From Chloroflexota bacterium (lineage in GTDB: Bacteria > Chloroflexota > Anaerolineae > UBA4142), in assembly GCA_016219275.1 (NCBI GenBank), contig JACRBM010000088.1, positions 1 through 64,000 on the forward strand: DNA of 64,000 nucleotides, read 5' to 3'. Positions 39,679-50,470 of the stretch are shown piece after piece. The notes under the pieces were generated by a model, which saw only the letters and a list, made by a program, of their open reading frames with translations, made no database searches and was not told where the DNA came from. The translations under genes were made by a program, and so were the position numbers. Position 1 is the stretch's first letter. Each line of letters opens with the position of its first letter.

Positions 39679-40848
39679 ATGCAAGACGAGACGATTATCA
39701 TTTTGGCGAATGCCGAGTGGGACTGGAGCAATCGCGTCAACTGTCATCATATCGCGGCGCGCTTGGCGAAACACAATACGGTTCTGTTCGTGGACACGAT
39801 TGGCGGACGCACGCCCGCCCCGCGCGAATTCAAAAAGATCGCGCGGCGTTTGCGCCGAATCGCCGGGGGCGTGCGCCAGATCGGCGATGGGTTGATCGTG
39901 TTGTCGCCATTCGTGTTGCCGTTTTATCGCAGTGAGTTCGTGCGCCGAATCAACACCCGTTTGCTCGCGTGGCAAATTCGCCGCGCGTTGCCGCGCGGTG
40001 CGACGCGTCCGATCGCGTACTTGTTTCTGCCCGCGCTCGTCGGCTTGATCGGCGCGTTGAACGAAAAACTCGTCGTCTATCATTGCGTGGACGTACACGC
40101 CGCGAACCCGAACGTGCCGGCGCGCGAGGTGCGCGCCCGCGAGGAACAGTTGTTACGCGCGGCGGATGTCGTGTTCACTTCGGCGGCGACGTTATACGCG
40201 GAAAAGCGCGCGCTGAACGCGCACACGTACTATGTGCCGAACGTCGCGGACGCGGAACATTTCGCGCGCGCGCGCGACGCGGCATTGCCGATTGCCGATG
40301 CGGTACGCGATCTACCGCATCCGCTCGCGGGGTTTATCGGCAACCTCACCGCGTACAAAGTGGATTTCGATTTGTTGAGCGCGGTCGCGGCGCGCGCGCC
40401 CGGATGGACGTTCGCGTTGATCGGTCCGATCGGACGCGGCGATCCGTCTACCGACTTGGCGCGTTTGCACGCGCAGCCGAACATTCGCGTGCTCGGCGAA
40501 ATGCCGTACGCCGAATTACCGCGAGCGGTCAAAGCGTTCGACGTGTGCTTGATTCCGTTCAACCAAAACGCATCCACGCGCGGCACGTTTCCGATGAAGT
40601 TTTTCGAGTATCTCGCGGCGGGCAAGCCGGTCATTGCGACCGATCTGCCGGCGCTCGCCGAGTTTAGTCCATATTTTTACACCGCGCGCAACGCCGACGA
40701 ATTTCTCGCCGCGCTCGACGCGGCGCAACACGAGGATGCGACATGCATCAACCAACGCATGACCATCGCGCAAAAGTATTCCTGGGACGCGCGCATACGC
40801 GAAATCGAAACGATTCTCACGAACGCGCTCGCGGAGCGCGCGCGATGA
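39679..40848 (+). CDS. GT-B glycosyltransferase, TuaH-like
   Basis: A 389-residue protein. NRVNCHHIAARLAKHNTVLF and VVYHCVDVHAANP in the N-terminal half and PLAGFIGNLTAYKVDFDLLS in the donor half resemble TuaH-like enzymes of exopolymer loci; the donor end is FPMKFFEYLAAGKPVIATDL. ATG 39679 follows a weak GAGAGAA. The stop overlaps the sugar transferase start as ATGA. Confidence 0.87.
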   Translation: MQDETIIILANAEWDWSNRVNCHHIAARLAKHNTVLFVDTIGGRTPAPREFKKIARRLRRIAGGVRQIGDGLIVLSPFVLPFYRSEFVRRINTRLLAWQIRRALPRGATRPIAYLFLPALVGLIGALNEKLVVYHCVDVHAANPNVPAREVRAREEQLLRAADVVFTSAATLYAEKRALNAHTYYVPNVADAEHFARARDAALPIADAVRDLPHPLAGFIGNLTAYKVDFDLLSAVAARAPGWTFALIGPIGRGDPSTDLARLHAQPNIRVLGEMPYAELPRAVKAFDVCLIPFNQNASTRGTFPMKFFEYLAAGKPVIATDLPALAEFSPYFYTARNADEFLAALDAAQHEDATCINQRMTIAQKYSWDARIREIETILTNALAERAR

Positions 40849-41456
40849 ATGCTTGGCGCGATTTGCAACGCGCGGTCAAACGCGTCGCGGATGTCGTTAC
40901 CGCGGCGGTTTTGCTGATCGTGCTCGCGCCCGTCCTCGCGTTGATCGCGCTGGCGATTCGCGTGACGAGCGGCGCGCCAGTCTTTTTCGAATGGAACGTC
41001 GTCGGCGAAGAGGGACGCGCGTTTACCGGTTACAAATTTCGTACGATGGTCGTCGGCGCGGATTTGATCAAACAAGAATTGTTGCACCTGAACGAAATGC
41101 AAGGTCCGGTGTTCAAGATCAAAAACGATCCGCGCATCACGCCCGTCGGTCGCGTTTTGCGAAAATACTCGCTCGACGAATTGCCGCAATTGTGGAGCGT
41201 GCTCAAAGGCGATATGAGTCTGGTCGGTCCGCGCCCGCCGCTCGTCTCCGAGTTCGCGGAATTTACCGAAGAGCAAAAACAGAAACTCGCGGTGCGACCC
41301 GGCATGACCTCGTTGTGGCAAGTGCGCGGCAAACCGCAAGATTTCGGCGAATGGCTCACACTCGATCTGGAGTACATCGCGCGGTGGTCGCTCTGGCTCG
41401 ATTTCGAAATTCTGGTGCGGACGTTCTGGGTGGTCATCACGGGAGGCAATCATTGA
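40845..41456 (+). CDS. Polyprenyl-phosphate sugar-1-phosphate transferase (short, PglC-like)
   Basis: A 203-residue monotopic phosphoglycosyl transferase that starts lipid-linked glycan assembly. One re-entrant hydrophobic helix (about 15-37) is followed by GYKFRTMV, FKIKNDPRITPVGRVLRKYS, the catalytic pair in SLDELPQLW (Asp111, Glu112), and MSLVGPRPP. It is complete without the extra N-terminal membrane domain seen in the two other copies at 43652 and 49091. Confidence 0.92.
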   Translation: MNAWRDLQRAVKRVADVVTAAVLLIVLAPVLALIALAIRVTSGAPVFFEWNVVGEEGRAFTGYKFRTMVVGADLIKQELLHLNEMQGPVFKIKNDPRITPVGRVLRKYSLDELPQLWSVLKGDMSLVGPRPPLVSEFAEFTEEQKQKLAVRPGMTSLWQVRGKPQDFGEWLTLDLEYIARWSLWLDFEILVRTFWVVITGGNH

Positions 41457-41484: not shown

Positions 41485-42624
41485 ATGAAGATTCTAGTTA
41501 CCGGTGGCGCAGGTTTTATCGGCTCGCACACGGTTGATCTATTGTTGGAGAAAGGACACAGTGTCCGGATTTTGGATAGTCTCACTCCGCCAGTGCACAT
41601 TGACGGACAAATGCCGGCGTATGTGCCGCGCCAAGTCGAATTCATGCGCGGCGACGTACGCGATCGCGATGCGTGGGCGCGCGCGCTCGCCGGGGTGGAC
41701 GCGGTCTTTCATTTTGCCGCGTACCAGGATTATCTGACCGATTTCGCCAAATTCTTTCACGTCAATACGGTCGGCACGGCATTGTTGTACGAAATCATCG
41801 TCGCGAAAAATCTGCCGATTCGCAAAGTGGTGTTCGCCAGTTCGCAAGCCACCTATGGCGAAGGCAAGTACGTGTGCGAGCGCGACGGCGTGCAATATCC
41901 GCCCCTGCGTTCGCTCGAGCAATTGATGCGCCGCGATTGGGAACCCGATTGCCCGGTGTGCGGTCGCAAGATGAAATCGGTCGTGACGGACGAGGCGCAA
42001 GTGACGCCGCACAATCAGTACGCCATGTCCAAGTACACCCAGGAAATGATCGCGTTGAACCTGGGCAAGCGCTACGGTATTCCCTCGGTCGGATTGCGTT
42101 TTTCGATTGTGCAAGGTCCGCGCCAATCGTTTCGCAACGCGTACTCCGGCGTCTTGCGTATTTTCGCGACGCGCTTGTTGAACGACCAAACGCCGGTCTG
42201 TTACGAGGACGGTCAGCAGTTGCGCGATTATGTGTCGGTGCACGACGTAGCGCGCGCGAACGTGCTGGTGCTCGAAGACCCGCGCGCTGATTACCAGGTG
42301 TTCAACGTCGGCGGCGGTCGCGCGATCACGGTCGAAGAGTACGCGCATCTCGTCGCGCGCGTGATCGGCAAGGATGTCGTGCCGCGCATCCCCGGCGAAT
42401 TTCGGTTCGGCGACACGCGGCACATCGTCTCCGACATTAGCAAACTGTGCGCGCTCGGTTGGCAACCACACGTCCCGTTCGAAAGCATCGTCGCGGAGTA
42501 CGTCGCGTGGGTGCGCGCCCAGGCGGACGCGCGCGATTATTACCAAGACGCCGAACGTCAGATGAAAGCGATGGGAACCATACGCATGGCGAGTGACACA
42601 CACCAACTGGTGAACGATATCTAA
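41485..42624 (+). CDS. NAD-dependent sugar epimerase, dTDP-L-rhamnose 4-epimerase-like
   Basis: A 379-residue extended SDR. TGGAGFIGSH (residues 6-15) binds NAD; the catalytic Tyr and Lys are in NQYAMSKYTQE. An insert with a CPVCG knuckle after YVCERDGVQYPPLRSLEQL is typical of enzymes annotated as dTDP-L-rhamnose 4-epimerase; only one CxxC is present here, so a full zinc site is doubtful. ATG 41485 follows GAAGGGG. Specificity is inferred. Confidence 0.82.
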   Translation: MKILVTGGAGFIGSHTVDLLLEKGHSVRILDSLTPPVHIDGQMPAYVPRQVEFMRGDVRDRDAWARALAGVDAVFHFAAYQDYLTDFAKFFHVNTVGTALLYEIIVAKNLPIRKVVFASSQATYGEGKYVCERDGVQYPPLRSLEQLMRRDWEPDCPVCGRKMKSVVTDEAQVTPHNQYAMSKYTQEMIALNLGKRYGIPSVGLRFSIVQGPRQSFRNAYSGVLRIFATRLLNDQTPVCYEDGQQLRDYVSVHDVARANVLVLEDPRADYQVFNVGGGRAITVEEYAHLVARVIGKDVVPRIPGEFRFGDTRHIVSDISKLCALGWQPHVPFESIVAEYVAWVRAQADARDYYQDAERQMKAMGTIRMASDTHQLVNDI

Positions 42625-43662
42625 ATGCTAATCACACGCGCACCCGTTCGCATCAGTTTTGCCGGCGGCGGCACCGATCTACCGGCGTACTACTCACAGT
42701 ACGGCGGCGCGGTTGTCAGCACGGCGATTGACAAGTACTTTTACGTGTTCCTCAACGTCAGCGGCGATGACACGATTCAAATCACGTCGTCGGACTATCG
42801 CACGTTCTATCGGCACGACGGTGACCTGCCCTTGCTGTTCGACGGCGACTTGAGTCTGCCGCGCGCGATTTTGCACCATTTCGGTTTGGCGCGCGGCATC
42901 GCCATGTTCCTCGCGTCCGAAATTCCGCCGGGCACCGGCTTGGGTTCGTCCTCGACCGTCACGGTCGCGATCATCAAAGCGGTCGCCACCGCGCGCGGGT
43001 TGATGCTTTCGAAAAAACAAATCGCGGAACTCGCGTGCCACATCGAAATCGAAAAGATGACGGAGCCAATCGGCAAACAAGACCAGTACGCCGCCGCCTT
43101 TGGCGATCTCAACTTGATTCAGTTTTCGGCGGACGGCGTAACGGTCGAGCCGTTGCGCGTGGCATCCGAAACGCGGCGCGCGCTCGAACGCAACTTGATG
43201 TTATTTTTTACTGGGGCGACGCGCGCGGCATCTTCGATTTTGCGCGCGCAAAAAGCCTCGTCGGAGAAACAAGACCCGCGTGTGATGGACGCGCTCCACG
43301 CGGTCAAAGCGATGGCGTTTCAAGCGAAAGAGTACTTGGAACGCGGCGACCTCCCTCGCTTTGGCGCGTTGCTCGATACCGCGTGGCAGAACAAGAAGAA
43401 ATTCGCGAGCGGCGTTTCGAACGCGTTGATTGACGAGTGCTACGACCTCGCGCTTGAAAACGGCGCGCTGGGCGGCAAGGTCACCGGCGCAGGCGGCGGC
43501 GGCTTTTTGATGATCTACTGCGAACCCGAACAGCAACCCGCCGTCACGCAAGCTCTCGAAGCCAAAGGACTTAAGCGGATGGATTTCCGTTTCGACAGCG
43601 AAGGCGCGCGCGTCTTGGTCAACGCGGGATTGCGAATTCCGGAAAGCGCGTATGCGGCGTAA
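42625..43662 (+). CDS. hddA: GHMP kinase, heptose 7-phosphate kinase-like
   Basis: A 345-residue GHMP kinase. RAPVRISFAGGGTDLPAYYS opens it, the ATP loop is PPGTGLGSSSTVTVA, and KVTGAGGGGFLMIYCEP is motif 3. The FAGGGTDLP start is the D-glycero-D-manno-heptose 7-phosphate kinase (HddA) / fucokinase-like type. The GmhB-like phosphatase 1.5 kb downstream supports a heptose pathway; gmhA and hddC are not in the window. The start codon directly abuts the epimerase stop. Confidence 0.82.
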   Translation: MLITRAPVRISFAGGGTDLPAYYSQYGGAVVSTAIDKYFYVFLNVSGDDTIQITSSDYRTFYRHDGDLPLLFDGDLSLPRAILHHFGLARGIAMFLASEIPPGTGLGSSSTVTVAIIKAVATARGLMLSKKQIAELACHIEIEKMTEPIGKQDQYAAAFGDLNLIQFSADGVTVEPLRVASETRRALERNLMLFFTGATRAASSILRAQKASSEKQDPRVMDALHAVKAMAFQAKEYLERGDLPRFGALLDTAWQNKKKFASGVSNALIDECYDLALENGALGGKVTGAGGGGFLMIYCEPEQQPAVTQALEAKGLKRMDFRFDSEGARVLVNAGLRIPESAYAA

Positions 43663-45025
43663 CGAATATCTTTATCTCATTGCTTTGTGGTTGATCGGCG
43701 ATGCGCTCGCGATCTTTGTCGCGTTGAACGCCGCGTTTTTTGTGCGCTACAATTTCGATTGGCTCTTGCCCTTTATCGAGCGGCTCGATCCGATTGCCGA
43801 ACGGTACGCGGTGATCATTCCGTTCGCCGTGCCCTTGTGGCTCGCGCTCTTTGCGTTCAATCGTTTGTACGATCGGCGCTATTTGCTCGCGGGGTTGCAG
43901 GAGTATGGCAAAGTCGCGGCGAGTTCGGCGATGGGCGTGCTCGCGCTCGTCGTGCTCAGTTACTCTGTGCCGAACCTCAGCATTTCGCGCAGTTGGCTGG
44001 TGCTGTCCTGGCTCTTCGTCACGTTCCTGGTCAGTGCGACGCGTTTTACGATTCGGCGTTTGGTGCGCGTCGCGCGCGCGCGCGGGCAATTTGTCGCGCG
44101 CGCGCTCATCGTCGGCGCGAACGAACACGCGATTGCCATCGCGCAACAATTGACCCCGGCGACGGCGTCCGGCATTCAGGTCGTCGGCTTTCTCGACGAT
44201 TTTCTGCCGCGCGAGATGCGCGTGCTTGGCGATTTGCGCGTGCTCGACCGCGCCAGCGCGTTGGCGCGCGTGGCGCGCGAAACCGGCGCAACGCAAGCGA
44301 TTGTCGTGCAAGGCGCGATTGCCTGGGAAAGTTTCGCCGAGATCATCACGCAAAGCATCTCGACGCTCGACGGACTCGAAATCAAACTCTCGCCCGGCTT
44401 TTACGAGATCATGGCGACCGGCGTACGACTGACCCAGGATGGTTTCGTCCCGCTCCTCGCGCTCGAAAAGAACCGCATCACCGGTTTGGATGCGGCGCTC
44501 AAGTATCTGCTCGATTATTCACTCGGCTTGTTCTTCGCGATGCTTGCTTCGCCGTTCATTCTGTTGATCGCGGCGCTCGTGAAAATCGTTTCGCCGGGGC
44601 GCGTGTTCGATCCGTACCCGGTGCTGGGTCTGCGCGAGAAACAATTTGTCACCTGGAAATTTCGGACGCGCCATCTCCAGTCGGATCAAGATCACGCATT
44701 CGGTCATCTGATTTACCGGCTCGGTCTCGACAAACTGCCGCAATTTTTCAACGTATTGCGCGGCGAAATGAGCATGGTCGGTCCGCGCCCGGTGCCGCGC
44801 ACGAGCGTGCTGAAATATCAAGAATGGTTGCCCACGCTGGCGAGCGTCAAGCCCGGCATCACCGGACCCTGGGTCGTCGCCGGCGATACCATAGACTCGT
44901 TCGAAGCCGAGATTCGGCTCGACCTTTACTACATTCGCAACTGGACGATCTGGCTCGACGCGCAAATTCTCCTGCAAACGGTCTTGCGCCTGTTCCAGGG
45001 TGTACGACCGAAAACGAAACGCTGA
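43652..45025 (+). CDS. Polyprenyl-phosphate sugar transferase-like protein with altered catalytic pair
   Basis: A 457-residue WbaP/WcaJ-type protein: four N-terminal membrane helices, a CoA-binding-like fold (ARALIVGANEHAIAIAQQL) and a C-terminal transferase domain with TWKFRTRH, MSMVGPRPV and KPGITGPWVV. The catalytic pair is Asp360-Lys361 (GLDKLPQFF), where active enzymes have Asp-Glu, and the usual NDPR-type segment before it is missing. It may be inactive, regulatory, or mechanistically different. It overlaps the preceding gene by 11 bases. Confidence 0.85.
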   Translation: MRRNEYLYLIALWLIGDALAIFVALNAAFFVRYNFDWLLPFIERLDPIAERYAVIIPFAVPLWLALFAFNRLYDRRYLLAGLQEYGKVAASSAMGVLALVVLSYSVPNLSISRSWLVLSWLFVTFLVSATRFTIRRLVRVARARGQFVARALIVGANEHAIAIAQQLTPATASGIQVVGFLDDFLPREMRVLGDLRVLDRASALARVARETGATQAIVVQGAIAWESFAEIITQSISTLDGLEIKLSPGFYEIMATGVRLTQDGFVPLLALEKNRITGLDAALKYLLDYSLGLFFAMLASPFILLIAALVKIVSPGRVFDPYPVLGLREKQFVTWKFRTRHLQSDQDHAFGHLIYRLGLDKLPQFFNVLRGEMSMVGPRPVPRTSVLKYQEWLPTLASVKPGITGPWVVAGDTIDSFEAEIRLDLYYIRNWTIWLDAQILLQTVLRLFQGVRPKTKR

Positions 45026-45028
45026 CGA

Positions 45029-45202
45029 ATGACGAACAAAATTCGCAATTTGCAATTTGCAATTCGCAATCTCGCGTGGTTTTTCTTCGCCGTGCTGCTC
45101 GCCGTCGTCGTAATTCAGCGGTCGGCATTCCTGGGTCTCGCCATCGCGATCACTGGCGGTATCGTATTTGGCATTCTCATCACGCGCGAGGTGAAGGCGT
45201 GA
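45029..45202 (+). CDS. Small two-helix membrane protein, 57 residues
   Basis: Begins ATG three bases after the sugar transferase stop and ends in TGA overlapping the next GTG start (GTGA). The product has two hydrophobic segments, about residues 15-29 (LAWFFFAVLLAVVVI) and 34-51 (FLGLAIAITGGIVFGILI), joined by QRSA, and a charged end REVKA. The first codons are made of an ATTCGCAATTTGC simple repeat (KIRNLQFAIRNL). Function unknown; coupling on both sides suggests a real gene, perhaps a helper of the sugar transferase. Confidence 0.72.
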   Translation: MTNKIRNLQFAIRNLAWFFFAVLLAVVVIQRSAFLGLAIAITGGIVFGILITREVKA

Positions 45203-45762
45203 CCACCCGCCGCGCGATCTTTCTCGACCGCGATGGCGTGATCAACGTCAACCGCGCCGATCACGTCAAATCCTGGGACGAATTTGTGTTTCTCCCCGGC
45301 GCGCTTGAAGCGTTGCGCGACCTTGCCGCGAGCGAATTCGTGATCATCGTGACGACGAACCAAGCCGCAATCGCGCGCGGCATGACGAGCGAAGTGGTCG
45401 TGCGCGACATTCACGCGCGGATGTCCACGGCGATTGCGCGCGCCGGCGGACGCGTGGACGCGATTTATTTTTGTCCGCATCGTCCCGAAGACGCGTGCGC
45501 GTGTCGCAAACCTGAAACGGGAATGTATCGCGACGCAGCGCGCGCGCTGGGCATTGACACGACGCGCTCGTACGTCATCGGCGACGCGCAGGCGGACGTG
45601 GACGCGGCGCGCGCGATTGGCGCGCAGGGCATTCTCGTGTTGACCGGGCGCGGCGGCGAGCACCACAGCCAAATGCAGGCGTGCGCGCGGAACGATTACG
45701 TGGTCGTCGCGGATTTGCCCCGCGCGGTCGAATGGATTCGGCAGAGAGAAACGTGGCGATGA
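45199..45762 (+). CDS. gmhB: D-glycero-D-manno-heptose-1,7-bisphosphate 7-phosphatase-like HAD protein
   Basis: A 187-residue HAD phosphatase. FLDRDGVINVNRADHVKSW carries the DXD nucleophile pair; TTNQAAIARG is motif 2; FCPHRPEDACACRKPETGM is the zinc-binding loop typical of GmhB; VIGDAQADVDAA is motif 4. With the HddA-like kinase it covers two adjacent steps towards a nucleotide-activated heptose. GTG 45199 overlaps the small membrane protein stop. Confidence 0.88.
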   Translation: MTTRRAIFLDRDGVINVNRADHVKSWDEFVFLPGALEALRDLAASEFVIIVTTNQAAIARGMTSEVVVRDIHARMSTAIARAGGRVDAIYFCPHRPEDACACRKPETGMYRDAARALGIDTTRSYVIGDAQADVDAARAIGAQGILVLTGRGGEHHSQMQACARNDYVVVADLPRAVEWIRQRETWR

Positions 45763-49090: not shown

Positions 49091-50470
49091 ATGGAAGAAC
49101 GTCGCACAATTTTGGTCGCGGTTGATTTGATGCTGGTGAATGTCGCCGTCGCGTTGGCGTTCGCGATTTGGTCGGTGCGCGGCGAAATAAGCTGGGTCAC
49201 GCTCGTCACCACGCAATTCTACTGGTTCGTCGCGCTATCGGTGCTGTGGCTGGGCGCGGCGTTCGCCACGGGCATGTACGATCTGCGTCTTGCCGCCGAG
49301 TTTAGCGCGACCGCGCGTGCGTTGAGCCGATCGCTCGTCCTCGTCGTCGTCGTGTATCTCGTCGTCTTTTTTTCGTCGCCGACGGAATTGCCGCGCGGGA
49401 TCGTGTTGTATCATGGCGTCCTCGCGGCGGGTTTGCTCGCGGTGTGGCGCGCGGTGTATTTGCGGATTGCGTGGCGCGGCGCGTTCCGGCGCAATGCGTT
49501 GATCATCGGCGCGGGCAACGCCGGGCAAACCATCGCGCGCGCGATGCGGGAACACGCGCGACCGCATTATTGGATCGTCGGATTTCTGGACGACGACCCA
49601 GCCAAACTCGGCAAACCGGTCAGCGCGCAATCCGATCTGCGCGTGCTCGGCGCGTCACGCGATCTGACGCGGTTGATCGCCGAGCACGACGCGCACGAAG
49701 TCGTGCTCGCCATCACGCGCGATGTATCGGACGAAACGTTTCGCGCGTTGCTCGACGCGCAGGAACGCGCGGTCGAAATTGTTCCGATGCCCGTGTTGTA
49801 CGAGCGACTGACCGGGCGCGTGCCGGTGGATTACATCGGCGATAGTTGGTACGTCGCCTTGCCGCTCGGTCACGCCGCGACGCGCAGTATTCAACCGCTC
49901 GTCAAACGCGCGTTCGACCTCGCGGCGGCGACGCTGGGATCGCTGCTGTTCGGCATCGCGTTGCCGTTCATCGCGCTCGCGGTAGGGTTCGATTCGCCGG
50001 GTCCGTTGTTTTACATGCAAGAACGCGTGGGACAGGGCGGACGCGTGTTTCGCGTTCGCAAAATTCGTACGATGCGCGTGGATGCGGAGCAGAACGGCGC
50101 GGTGTGGGCGACCAAAAACGATCCGCGCGTGACACGCGTGGGAAAACTTTTACGCAAAACGCACGTGGACGAGTTTCCGCAATTTTGGAACATTTTGCGC
50201 GGCGAGATGAGCGCGGTCGGTCCGCGTCCCGAACGTCCGGAATTCGTCGCGCAGTTGGAAAAAAAGATTCCGTTTTATCGTTTGCGGCACGCGGTCAAAC
50301 CCGGCATGGCGGGCTGGGCGCTCGTGAATGCGGGCTACGTGGACAGCATCGAGGACGCGCAGACACGCGTTGAATACGATCTCTATTACATCAAGCATCA
50401 ATCGCTCTGGTTCGATCTGTGGATTCTGTTTCGCACGGTCGCGCAAACCATCACGTTCGGCGGACGCTAA
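49091..50470 (+). CDS. Polyprenyl-phosphate sugar-1-phosphate transferase (WbaP/WcaJ type)
   Basis: A 459-residue initiating glycosylphosphotransferase: four N-terminal helices, a nucleotide-binding-like fold ([20 protein letters not shown], with [12 protein letters not shown]), a further helix near 285, and the catalytic domain with [35 protein letters not shown], Asp360-Glu361 in HVDEFPQFW, and MSAVGPRPE. All expected catalytic positions are present. Last gene of the exopolysaccharide locus before a strong terminator. Confidence 0.93.

Follow-up and report, generated by a model that had tools for sequence, protein, structure and literature searches.

What role is left to a large phosphoglycosyl transferase (PGT) homologue in which the Asp-Glu dyad of its family reads Asp-Lys? 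This question is raised by a gene in a 64,000-nucleotide stretch of DNA from a Chloroflexota bacterium (contig JACRBM010000088.1 of assembly GCA_016219275.1), which as a whole is called the window here. The Asp-Glu dyad occurs in all monotopic PGTs, as stated in the accessible part of PMC10519829. We call the protein and its relatives DK, for Asp-Lys type. The relevant features of the window are as follows.

40845..41456, + strand: small PGT with an intact SLDELPQ motif, the proposed catalytic partner, 2.2 kb from the DK gene
41485..42624, + strand: SDR, an NAD-dependent sugar epimerase/dehydratase, its upstream position conserved in several families of the class
42625..43662, + strand: GHMP kinase, nearest to HddA (D-glycero-D-manno-heptose 7-phosphate kinase) and under that model's cut-off
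43652..45025, + strand: DK-type large PGT homologue, 457 amino acids, with a membrane four-helix bundle, a CoA_binding_3/DUF domain, and a Bac_transf domain with Asp-Lys
44729..44734, + strand: codons GAC (44729–44731) and AAA (44732–44734) of Asp360-Lys361, at the site of the family's Asp-Glu dyad
45029..45202, + strand: 57-residue membrane protein, with relatives confined to part of the nearest family
45202..45762, + strand: GmhB, a HAD phosphatase (heptose 1,7-bisphosphate 7-phosphatase), over its NCBIfam cut-off
49091..50470, + strand: second large PGT, with an intact HVDEFPQ motif

Domains and predicted structure of the DK protein

The Asp-Lys pair described in the first-pass annotation is real. 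The translation of 43652–45025 (+ strand; 457 amino acids, including YRLGLDKLPQFFNVLRGEMSMVGPRP) reads GLDKLPQ, with D360 encoded by GAC and K361 by AAA, and the other two PGT motifs of the window also read as described, SLDELPQ (Asp codon at 41175) and HVDEFPQ (Asp codon at 50168). The protein matches the whole PF02397 (Bac_transf) profile at 134 bits (cut-off 27) and has a CoA_binding_3 domain (PF13727, 49 bits, cut-off 25), a combination that marks it as a homologue of the large PGTs. In a search of its own genome its PF02397 score, 137 bits, is the weakest among the nine such proteins, the others scoring 191–231 bits, and TIGR03025 (EPS_sugtrans) gives it 286 bits, under the cut-off of 296. 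By motif, seven of these nine proteins are Asp-Glu (two of them reading SIDESPQ and SLDELPE), one is Asn-Glu (KLNELPQ), and one is Asp-Lys.

An AlphaFold2 model of the DK protein, calculated from an input alignment of 40 sequences, has a mean pLDDT of 84.9. It consists of four N-terminal helices, a Rossmann-like domain, a long helix (278–313), and the catalytic domain. The long helix occupies the place expected for the re-entrant helix, and its helix-breaking proline is present (P301, in ASPF), as it is in 34 of 36 members of the DK clade. The model superimposes on PglC (8e37; Z 20.4, rmsd 2.4, 174 residues) and on WbaP (8t53; Z 22.6, 391 residues), for which the rmsd of 14.2 indicates that domain positions differ between the model and 8t53. 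Solved structures found by a sequence search with the DK protein were WbaP and PglC relatives only, and matches of the model to Rex and dehydrogenase structures involve only the Rossmann-like middle domain. The predicted match to PglC and WbaP supports retention of the fold, which had been claimed as intact.

Lysine is fixed in a single clade

A profile made from 18 orthologues was searched against 396 genomes of the class, of which 115 had a match at E ≤ 1e-80; the motif was read in every match of at least 396 bits, giving 36 with Lys and 51 with Glu. Each of the 36 Lys proteins belongs to a different genome, and these genomes represent eight families of the class (12 in f1, 5 in f2, 8 in f5, 2 in f16, 1 in f17, 6 in f22, 1 in f32, and 1 in f33). 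The residue preceding Lys is acidic in all 36 (Asp in 32, Glu in 4). By column counts, position 361 is Lys throughout the clade (36/36) versus Glu in 63 of 63 other PGTs, which were taken from the fetched loci by motif pattern with duplicates removed. Two PGTs of the window's own genome (L005 and L007), both Asp-Glu, fall outside the motif pattern and hence are not among the 63. As these column sets are split by the motif itself, the independent test is a tree of 92 large PGTs from which the motif columns were removed (one truncated DK protein omitted, and the late-fetched Asp-Glu rows, 40 in all, represented by 20). In this tree, the 35 Lys rows form a single clade (SH-aLRT 100), and their sister clade, from the same class, is Asp-Glu. 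This topology indicates one origin of Lys, with no loss of Lys observed. Thus the survey of homologues proposed in the first-pass annotation returned Lys in 36 of 36 and no random loss at the site; on this tree, Lys at 361 is not a random loss.

A search of 400 genomes sampled from the phylum (55 of the class, the window's own genome among them) with the DNA pattern GLDK[L/M/I]PQ gave hits in eight, of which only the window's own is a PGT, the other seven being chance or unrelated frames; the pattern is weak as a negative, since it misses GLEK, GADK, and TTR-Leu codings, and it missed a GADK genome in the sample (G115). A scan of genome contigs with peptide patterns, which were narrow and drawn from the N-terminal half, gave 21 loci, all from Chloroflexota. 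Most named relatives are from metagenome assemblies, and single odd residues (as in L047 and L146) may therefore be errors. The sister-clade PGT of L146 (G283) reads SLDELLQ, with Leu replacing the otherwise invariant Pro of the motif.

Selection on the DK gene

For seven DK pairs, dN/dS across the whole gene was 0.07–0.23, and judged by these ratios the DK gene is under purifying selection. It is highly improbable that the gene is a decaying pseudogene or a sequence error. A change of a single residue at the catalytic site and the many draft metagenome assemblies among the relatives would suit such an explanation; it is opposed by the same Lys in 36 genomes, open frames, these low ratios, and synteny over eight families.

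Constraint is distributed differently within the protein in the DK clade and its sister. The median ratio of catalytic to N-terminal distance, calculated for close pairs sharing no row, was 1.16 for DK (17 pairs) versus 0.64 for the Asp-Glu sister (16 pairs; Mann-Whitney p = 4.6e-5). The DK catalytic domain evolves, when scaled to the N-terminal part, at ~2 times the rate seen in the sister clade, which indicates looser constraint on this domain than in the sister, though it is far from free. The relaxed rate could alternatively mean a change of substrate.

Substrate-binding positions lost and kept

Positions were mapped by alignment to PglC and by column counts in the 36 DK proteins and 63 other PGTs. 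The Met of KFRTM (PglC Met63) and the Arg of NDPR, which by our own positional mapping corresponds to PglC Arg79, are each present in 63 of 63 other PGTs and lost in the DK clade. The lack of an NDPR-type segment, which had been remarked upon from the sequence, was borne out: the stretch from KFRT to GLDK is shorter than in PglC (8e37), and the residue at the Arg79 position is not Arg. According to the portion of PMC12550135 available, Arg79 and Met63 of PglC are predicted uracil contacts, and the earlier remark therefore touches a possible nucleotide contact. The Arg88 position is Arg in 63 of 63 other PGTs, versus Tyr in 24, Phe in 4, Arg in 4, and other residues in 4 of the DK clade; the Arg145 position is Arg or Lys in 57 of 63 others and no longer basic in most DK members. 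The window protein has Tyr355 and Asp412 at these two positions. The accessible text of PMC10519829 has PglC Arg88 and Arg145 binding undecaprenyl phosphate, with a ~100–200 fold loss for R145A/Q and minimal activity for R88Q. The DK protein lacks both the Asp-Glu dyad of the catalytic monotopic PGT superfamily (D360-K361, with Lys in 36 of 36) and the undecaprenyl-phosphate arginines, which are both lost in most of the clade. By alignment, the DK clade is without the positions for uracil and undecaprenyl-phosphate binding.

Other positions are retained. The PRP substrate-binding motif is present as GPRP in the window protein; Arg379 of GPR is found in 35 of 36 DK proteins, and the second Pro is not general (GPRT in some families). 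Also kept are a basic residue at 336 (35/36), Ser374 (36/36), Pro363, and Gln364. Gly358 and Arg429 are new invariants of the clade (36/36 each), and Glu420 occurs in 32 of 36.

These retained and new residues bear on the possibility, which we consider unlikely, that the DK protein is still an enzyme, with Asp/Glu360 as nucleophile and Lys361 as a built-in cation in place of Mg2+. Such a protein would be a metal-independent phosphosugar transferase, maybe with another nucleotide or acceptor (e.g., GDP-heptose). The invariant acidic residue, Lys, Ser374, Gly358, and Arg429 and the nearly invariant Arg379, residue 336, and Glu420 all suit a working site, and loss of the proposed uracil contacts could mean a different nucleotide. 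The conservation of [Asp/Glu]-Lys (36/36) and Arg379 (35/36) in particular is stricter than a mere scaffold needs, and it keeps a metal-free enzyme in play. Speaking against such an enzyme are the loss of the undecaprenyl-phosphate arginines, the faster evolution of the catalytic domain, and the need of PglC-type enzymes for Mg2+, CapM being inactive with EDTA (PMC6441080, in the part accessible).

A small PGT upstream of the DK gene

The start of the window's small PGT, 40845, was chosen through overlap with the upstream gene, and searches used 40848–41453. PGT domains were searched for in 34 DK loci, the window's own excluded, and in 20 sister loci. Contigs end too soon upstream in six DK loci (L049, L052, L108, L110, L111, and L112), which leaves 28 informative. 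A small PGT, without a membrane/DUF part of its own, lies upstream within ~7 kb in 26 of these 28; the copies in L050 and L125, which our script labeled large on N-terminal matches of 25–29 bits (versus >310 for true large PGTs), were counted as small. No small PGT lies upstream in the sister loci (0/20, three of which, L176, L180, and L187, hold <5.5 kb of upstream DNA), and L186 has one 5.4 kb downstream. The difference between DK and sister loci has a Fisher p of 1.4e-11 for upstream copies only and 3.4e-10 if L186 is counted, values that ignore the kinship of loci and, because the loci share ancestry, overstate their independence.

Some loci count against a partnership of the DK protein with the small PGT. 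The exceptions among the 28, L040 and L048, have no adjacent copy, and both genomes have small PGTs elsewhere. The motif is Asp-Glu in 25 of 26 small PGTs of DK loci and SLVELPQ in L047. In this L047 copy (L047:3261-3860, G008), Val stands where the nucleophilic Asp is expected, which may reflect faulty assembly or mean that this copy, too, is disabled.

The small PGTs of DK loci differ in ancestry. Those of f5 and f16 branch from within the clade of sister-type catalytic domains, whose basal node has an SH-aLRT of 100, and those of f1, f32, f33, and part of f2 are in another group of the tree. The separate groups indicate that an active small PGT was placed near the DK gene at least twice, which is a further point against a metal-free DK enzyme. 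The window's type of small PGT (at least 59% identity) occurs in 16 of the 396 class genomes, and 15 of these 16 carry a DK gene, the exception being G091.

Other candidate partners in the window

The first-pass annotation had also proposed co-purification with the 57-residue protein. Relatives of this protein (E < 1e-3) were found in just 4 of 34 DK loci (L040, L044, L045, and L125), and it is ruled out as a general partner. In these four loci, and perhaps L049, the relatives follow the DK gene. The large PGT with HVDEFPQ has close syntenic relatives in the nearest family only. Since the window and its nearest relatives encode this further large Asp-Glu PGT nearby, the choice of partner is uncertain. 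Given the distribution of these genes, the likelier partner is the small PGT at 40845–41456 rather than the 57-residue protein. The earlier proposal of a pseudoenzyme partnered with another copy in the locus is partly supported: the Lys clade, lost sites, relaxed domain, and upstream small PGT agree with it, and the 57-residue protein as its partner found no support.

A neighborhood of putative heptose genes

In the set of 34 DK loci, an HddA-type GHMP kinase gene is upstream of the DK gene in all 32 with DNA there (3.8 kb off in L047), and a GmhB-type phosphatase gene follows downstream in 24 of the 33 whose contigs continue that far, L124 ending just past the DK gene. Sugar isomerase (SIS) and nucleotidyltransferase genes come directly after in several families. 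Going by family models, with GmhB above and HddA below its cut-off, we take the SIS, nucleotidyltransferase, HddA-type, and GmhB-type neighbors to be the pathway to activated D-glycero-D-manno-heptose. At least two of the HddA-, GmhA-, GmhB-, and HddC-type genes are near the Asp-Glu sister PGT in 13 of 20 loci. It thus looks like the DK and sister clades are both located among genes for activated D,D-heptose, and the sharing of these genes with the sister clade indicates that the link to heptose probably predates Lys.

The neighborhood bears again on a DK protein that is still an enzyme. The combined proposal, that the clade is a metal-independent transferase with Lys361 for Mg2+, Asp/Glu as nucleophile, an altered nucleotide site, and perhaps a different acceptor, using the D,D-heptose of its neighbors, draws support from genes that look like an activated-heptose set. 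The same heptose linkage in the Asp-Glu sister leaves Lys unexplained, and we consider this fuller version rather unlikely. As a cause of Lys, the heptose genes were ruled out, since the Asp-Glu sister is also beside them in those 13 loci.

As a separate observation, the Asp-Glu sister large PGTs (L171–L190) often adjoin HddA-, GmhA-, GmhB-, or HddC-type genes, and it may be that they start heptose-containing glycans.

The DK gene of the nearest family has HAD, Wzy, flippase-like, and GT2 genes for neighbors. This setting would suit a DK protein that acts as a stand-alone sensor of nucleotides or nucleotide sugars, or as a scaffold of the polysaccharide machinery, with no binding to the small PGT. 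WbaP is a homodimer whose DUF senses and binds uridine nucleotides (PMC10942596, as far as its text was available), and this domain is kept in DK, where it is now in the slower-evolving part. Such a role leaves unexplained why small PGTs from different lineages were repeatedly placed nearby, and we think it improbable.

A proposed non-catalytic subunit for a small PGT

We consider it fairly probable that the DK protein is a large PGT without chemistry of its own that works as a non-catalytic subunit, a pseudo-PGT. The membrane bundle, a dimer-like surface, and the DUF that senses nucleotides would come from the DK protein, and the active site would come from the small PGT, which would perform the transfer, so that the two together would equal one homodimeric large PGT elsewhere. 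On undecaprenyl phosphate, the pair would begin a surface glycan associated with heptose. Lys361 is probably at the place of Mg2+ beside the kept acidic residue, where it may stand in for the metal as a structural charge and would hold the empty site in a fixed shape. This two-subunit proposal is prompted mainly by the comparison of sister loci, which have one intact large PGT, with DK loci, which have a disabled large PGT and a small one. Adjacency of the small PGT and DK genes is not contact: the sequences show the residue changes, the clade, the selection, and the adjacency, and from there we infer inactivity, complex formation, regulation, and a heptose-containing product.

Comparison with known systems

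The DK protein resembles large monotopic PGTs (WbaP/WcaJ type; TIGR03025; 8t53) in its membrane bundle, CoA_binding_3/DUF domain, Bac_transf domain, GPR motif, re-entrant helix, and predicted fold. It is unlike these in having Asp-Lys, in having lost the positions of Met63, Arg79, Arg88, and Arg145 (PglC numbering), and in scoring below the TIGR03025 cut-off (286 versus 296 bits). With the small monotopic PGTs it shares the fold of the catalytic domain, as seen in the superposition of the model on PglC. However, a single small domain with Asp-Glu makes up the whole of PglC, whereas the DK protein is without the catalytic pair and the lipid-phosphate arginines. A dependence of large PGT activity on a non-catalytic protein partner is described for Myxococcus EpsZ/EpsW in the available portion of PMC12802240, but EpsZ is the enzyme there and the partner is a response regulator, while the DK homologue would itself be the non-catalytic partner. 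In S. aureus, the small PGT CapM is stimulated by CapAB, a partner associated with the membrane, which unlike DK is a tyrosine kinase system and no PGT homologue (PMC6441080, in its accessible part). Searches of the open-licence literature of PubMed Central turned up no description of an Asp-Lys PGT, nor of a PGT that is a pseudoenzyme, which is not proof of absence.

From its sequence relationships, DK is a real variant within a known family, and a conserved one. A clade in eight families has fixed Lys at a residue of the dyad that PMC10519829, in the part available, puts in all monotopic PGTs. If the two-subunit reading is true, the first step of surface-glycan synthesis can be divided between a subunit with the active site and a pseudoenzyme that serves as membrane and sensor part, and the role of the N-terminal domains of large PGTs becomes testable separately from catalysis.

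Two other PGT genes have unusual features. The Asn-Glu protein of the window's own genome (L008, C58:62408-62989; KLNELPQ) has Asn for the nucleophilic Asp and a long branch in the tree. In L125:13653-15446 (− strand; G011), and likewise in L041, a GT4-type glycosyltransferase and a small PGT share a single open frame and may be a natural fusion that joins two steps of glycan building.
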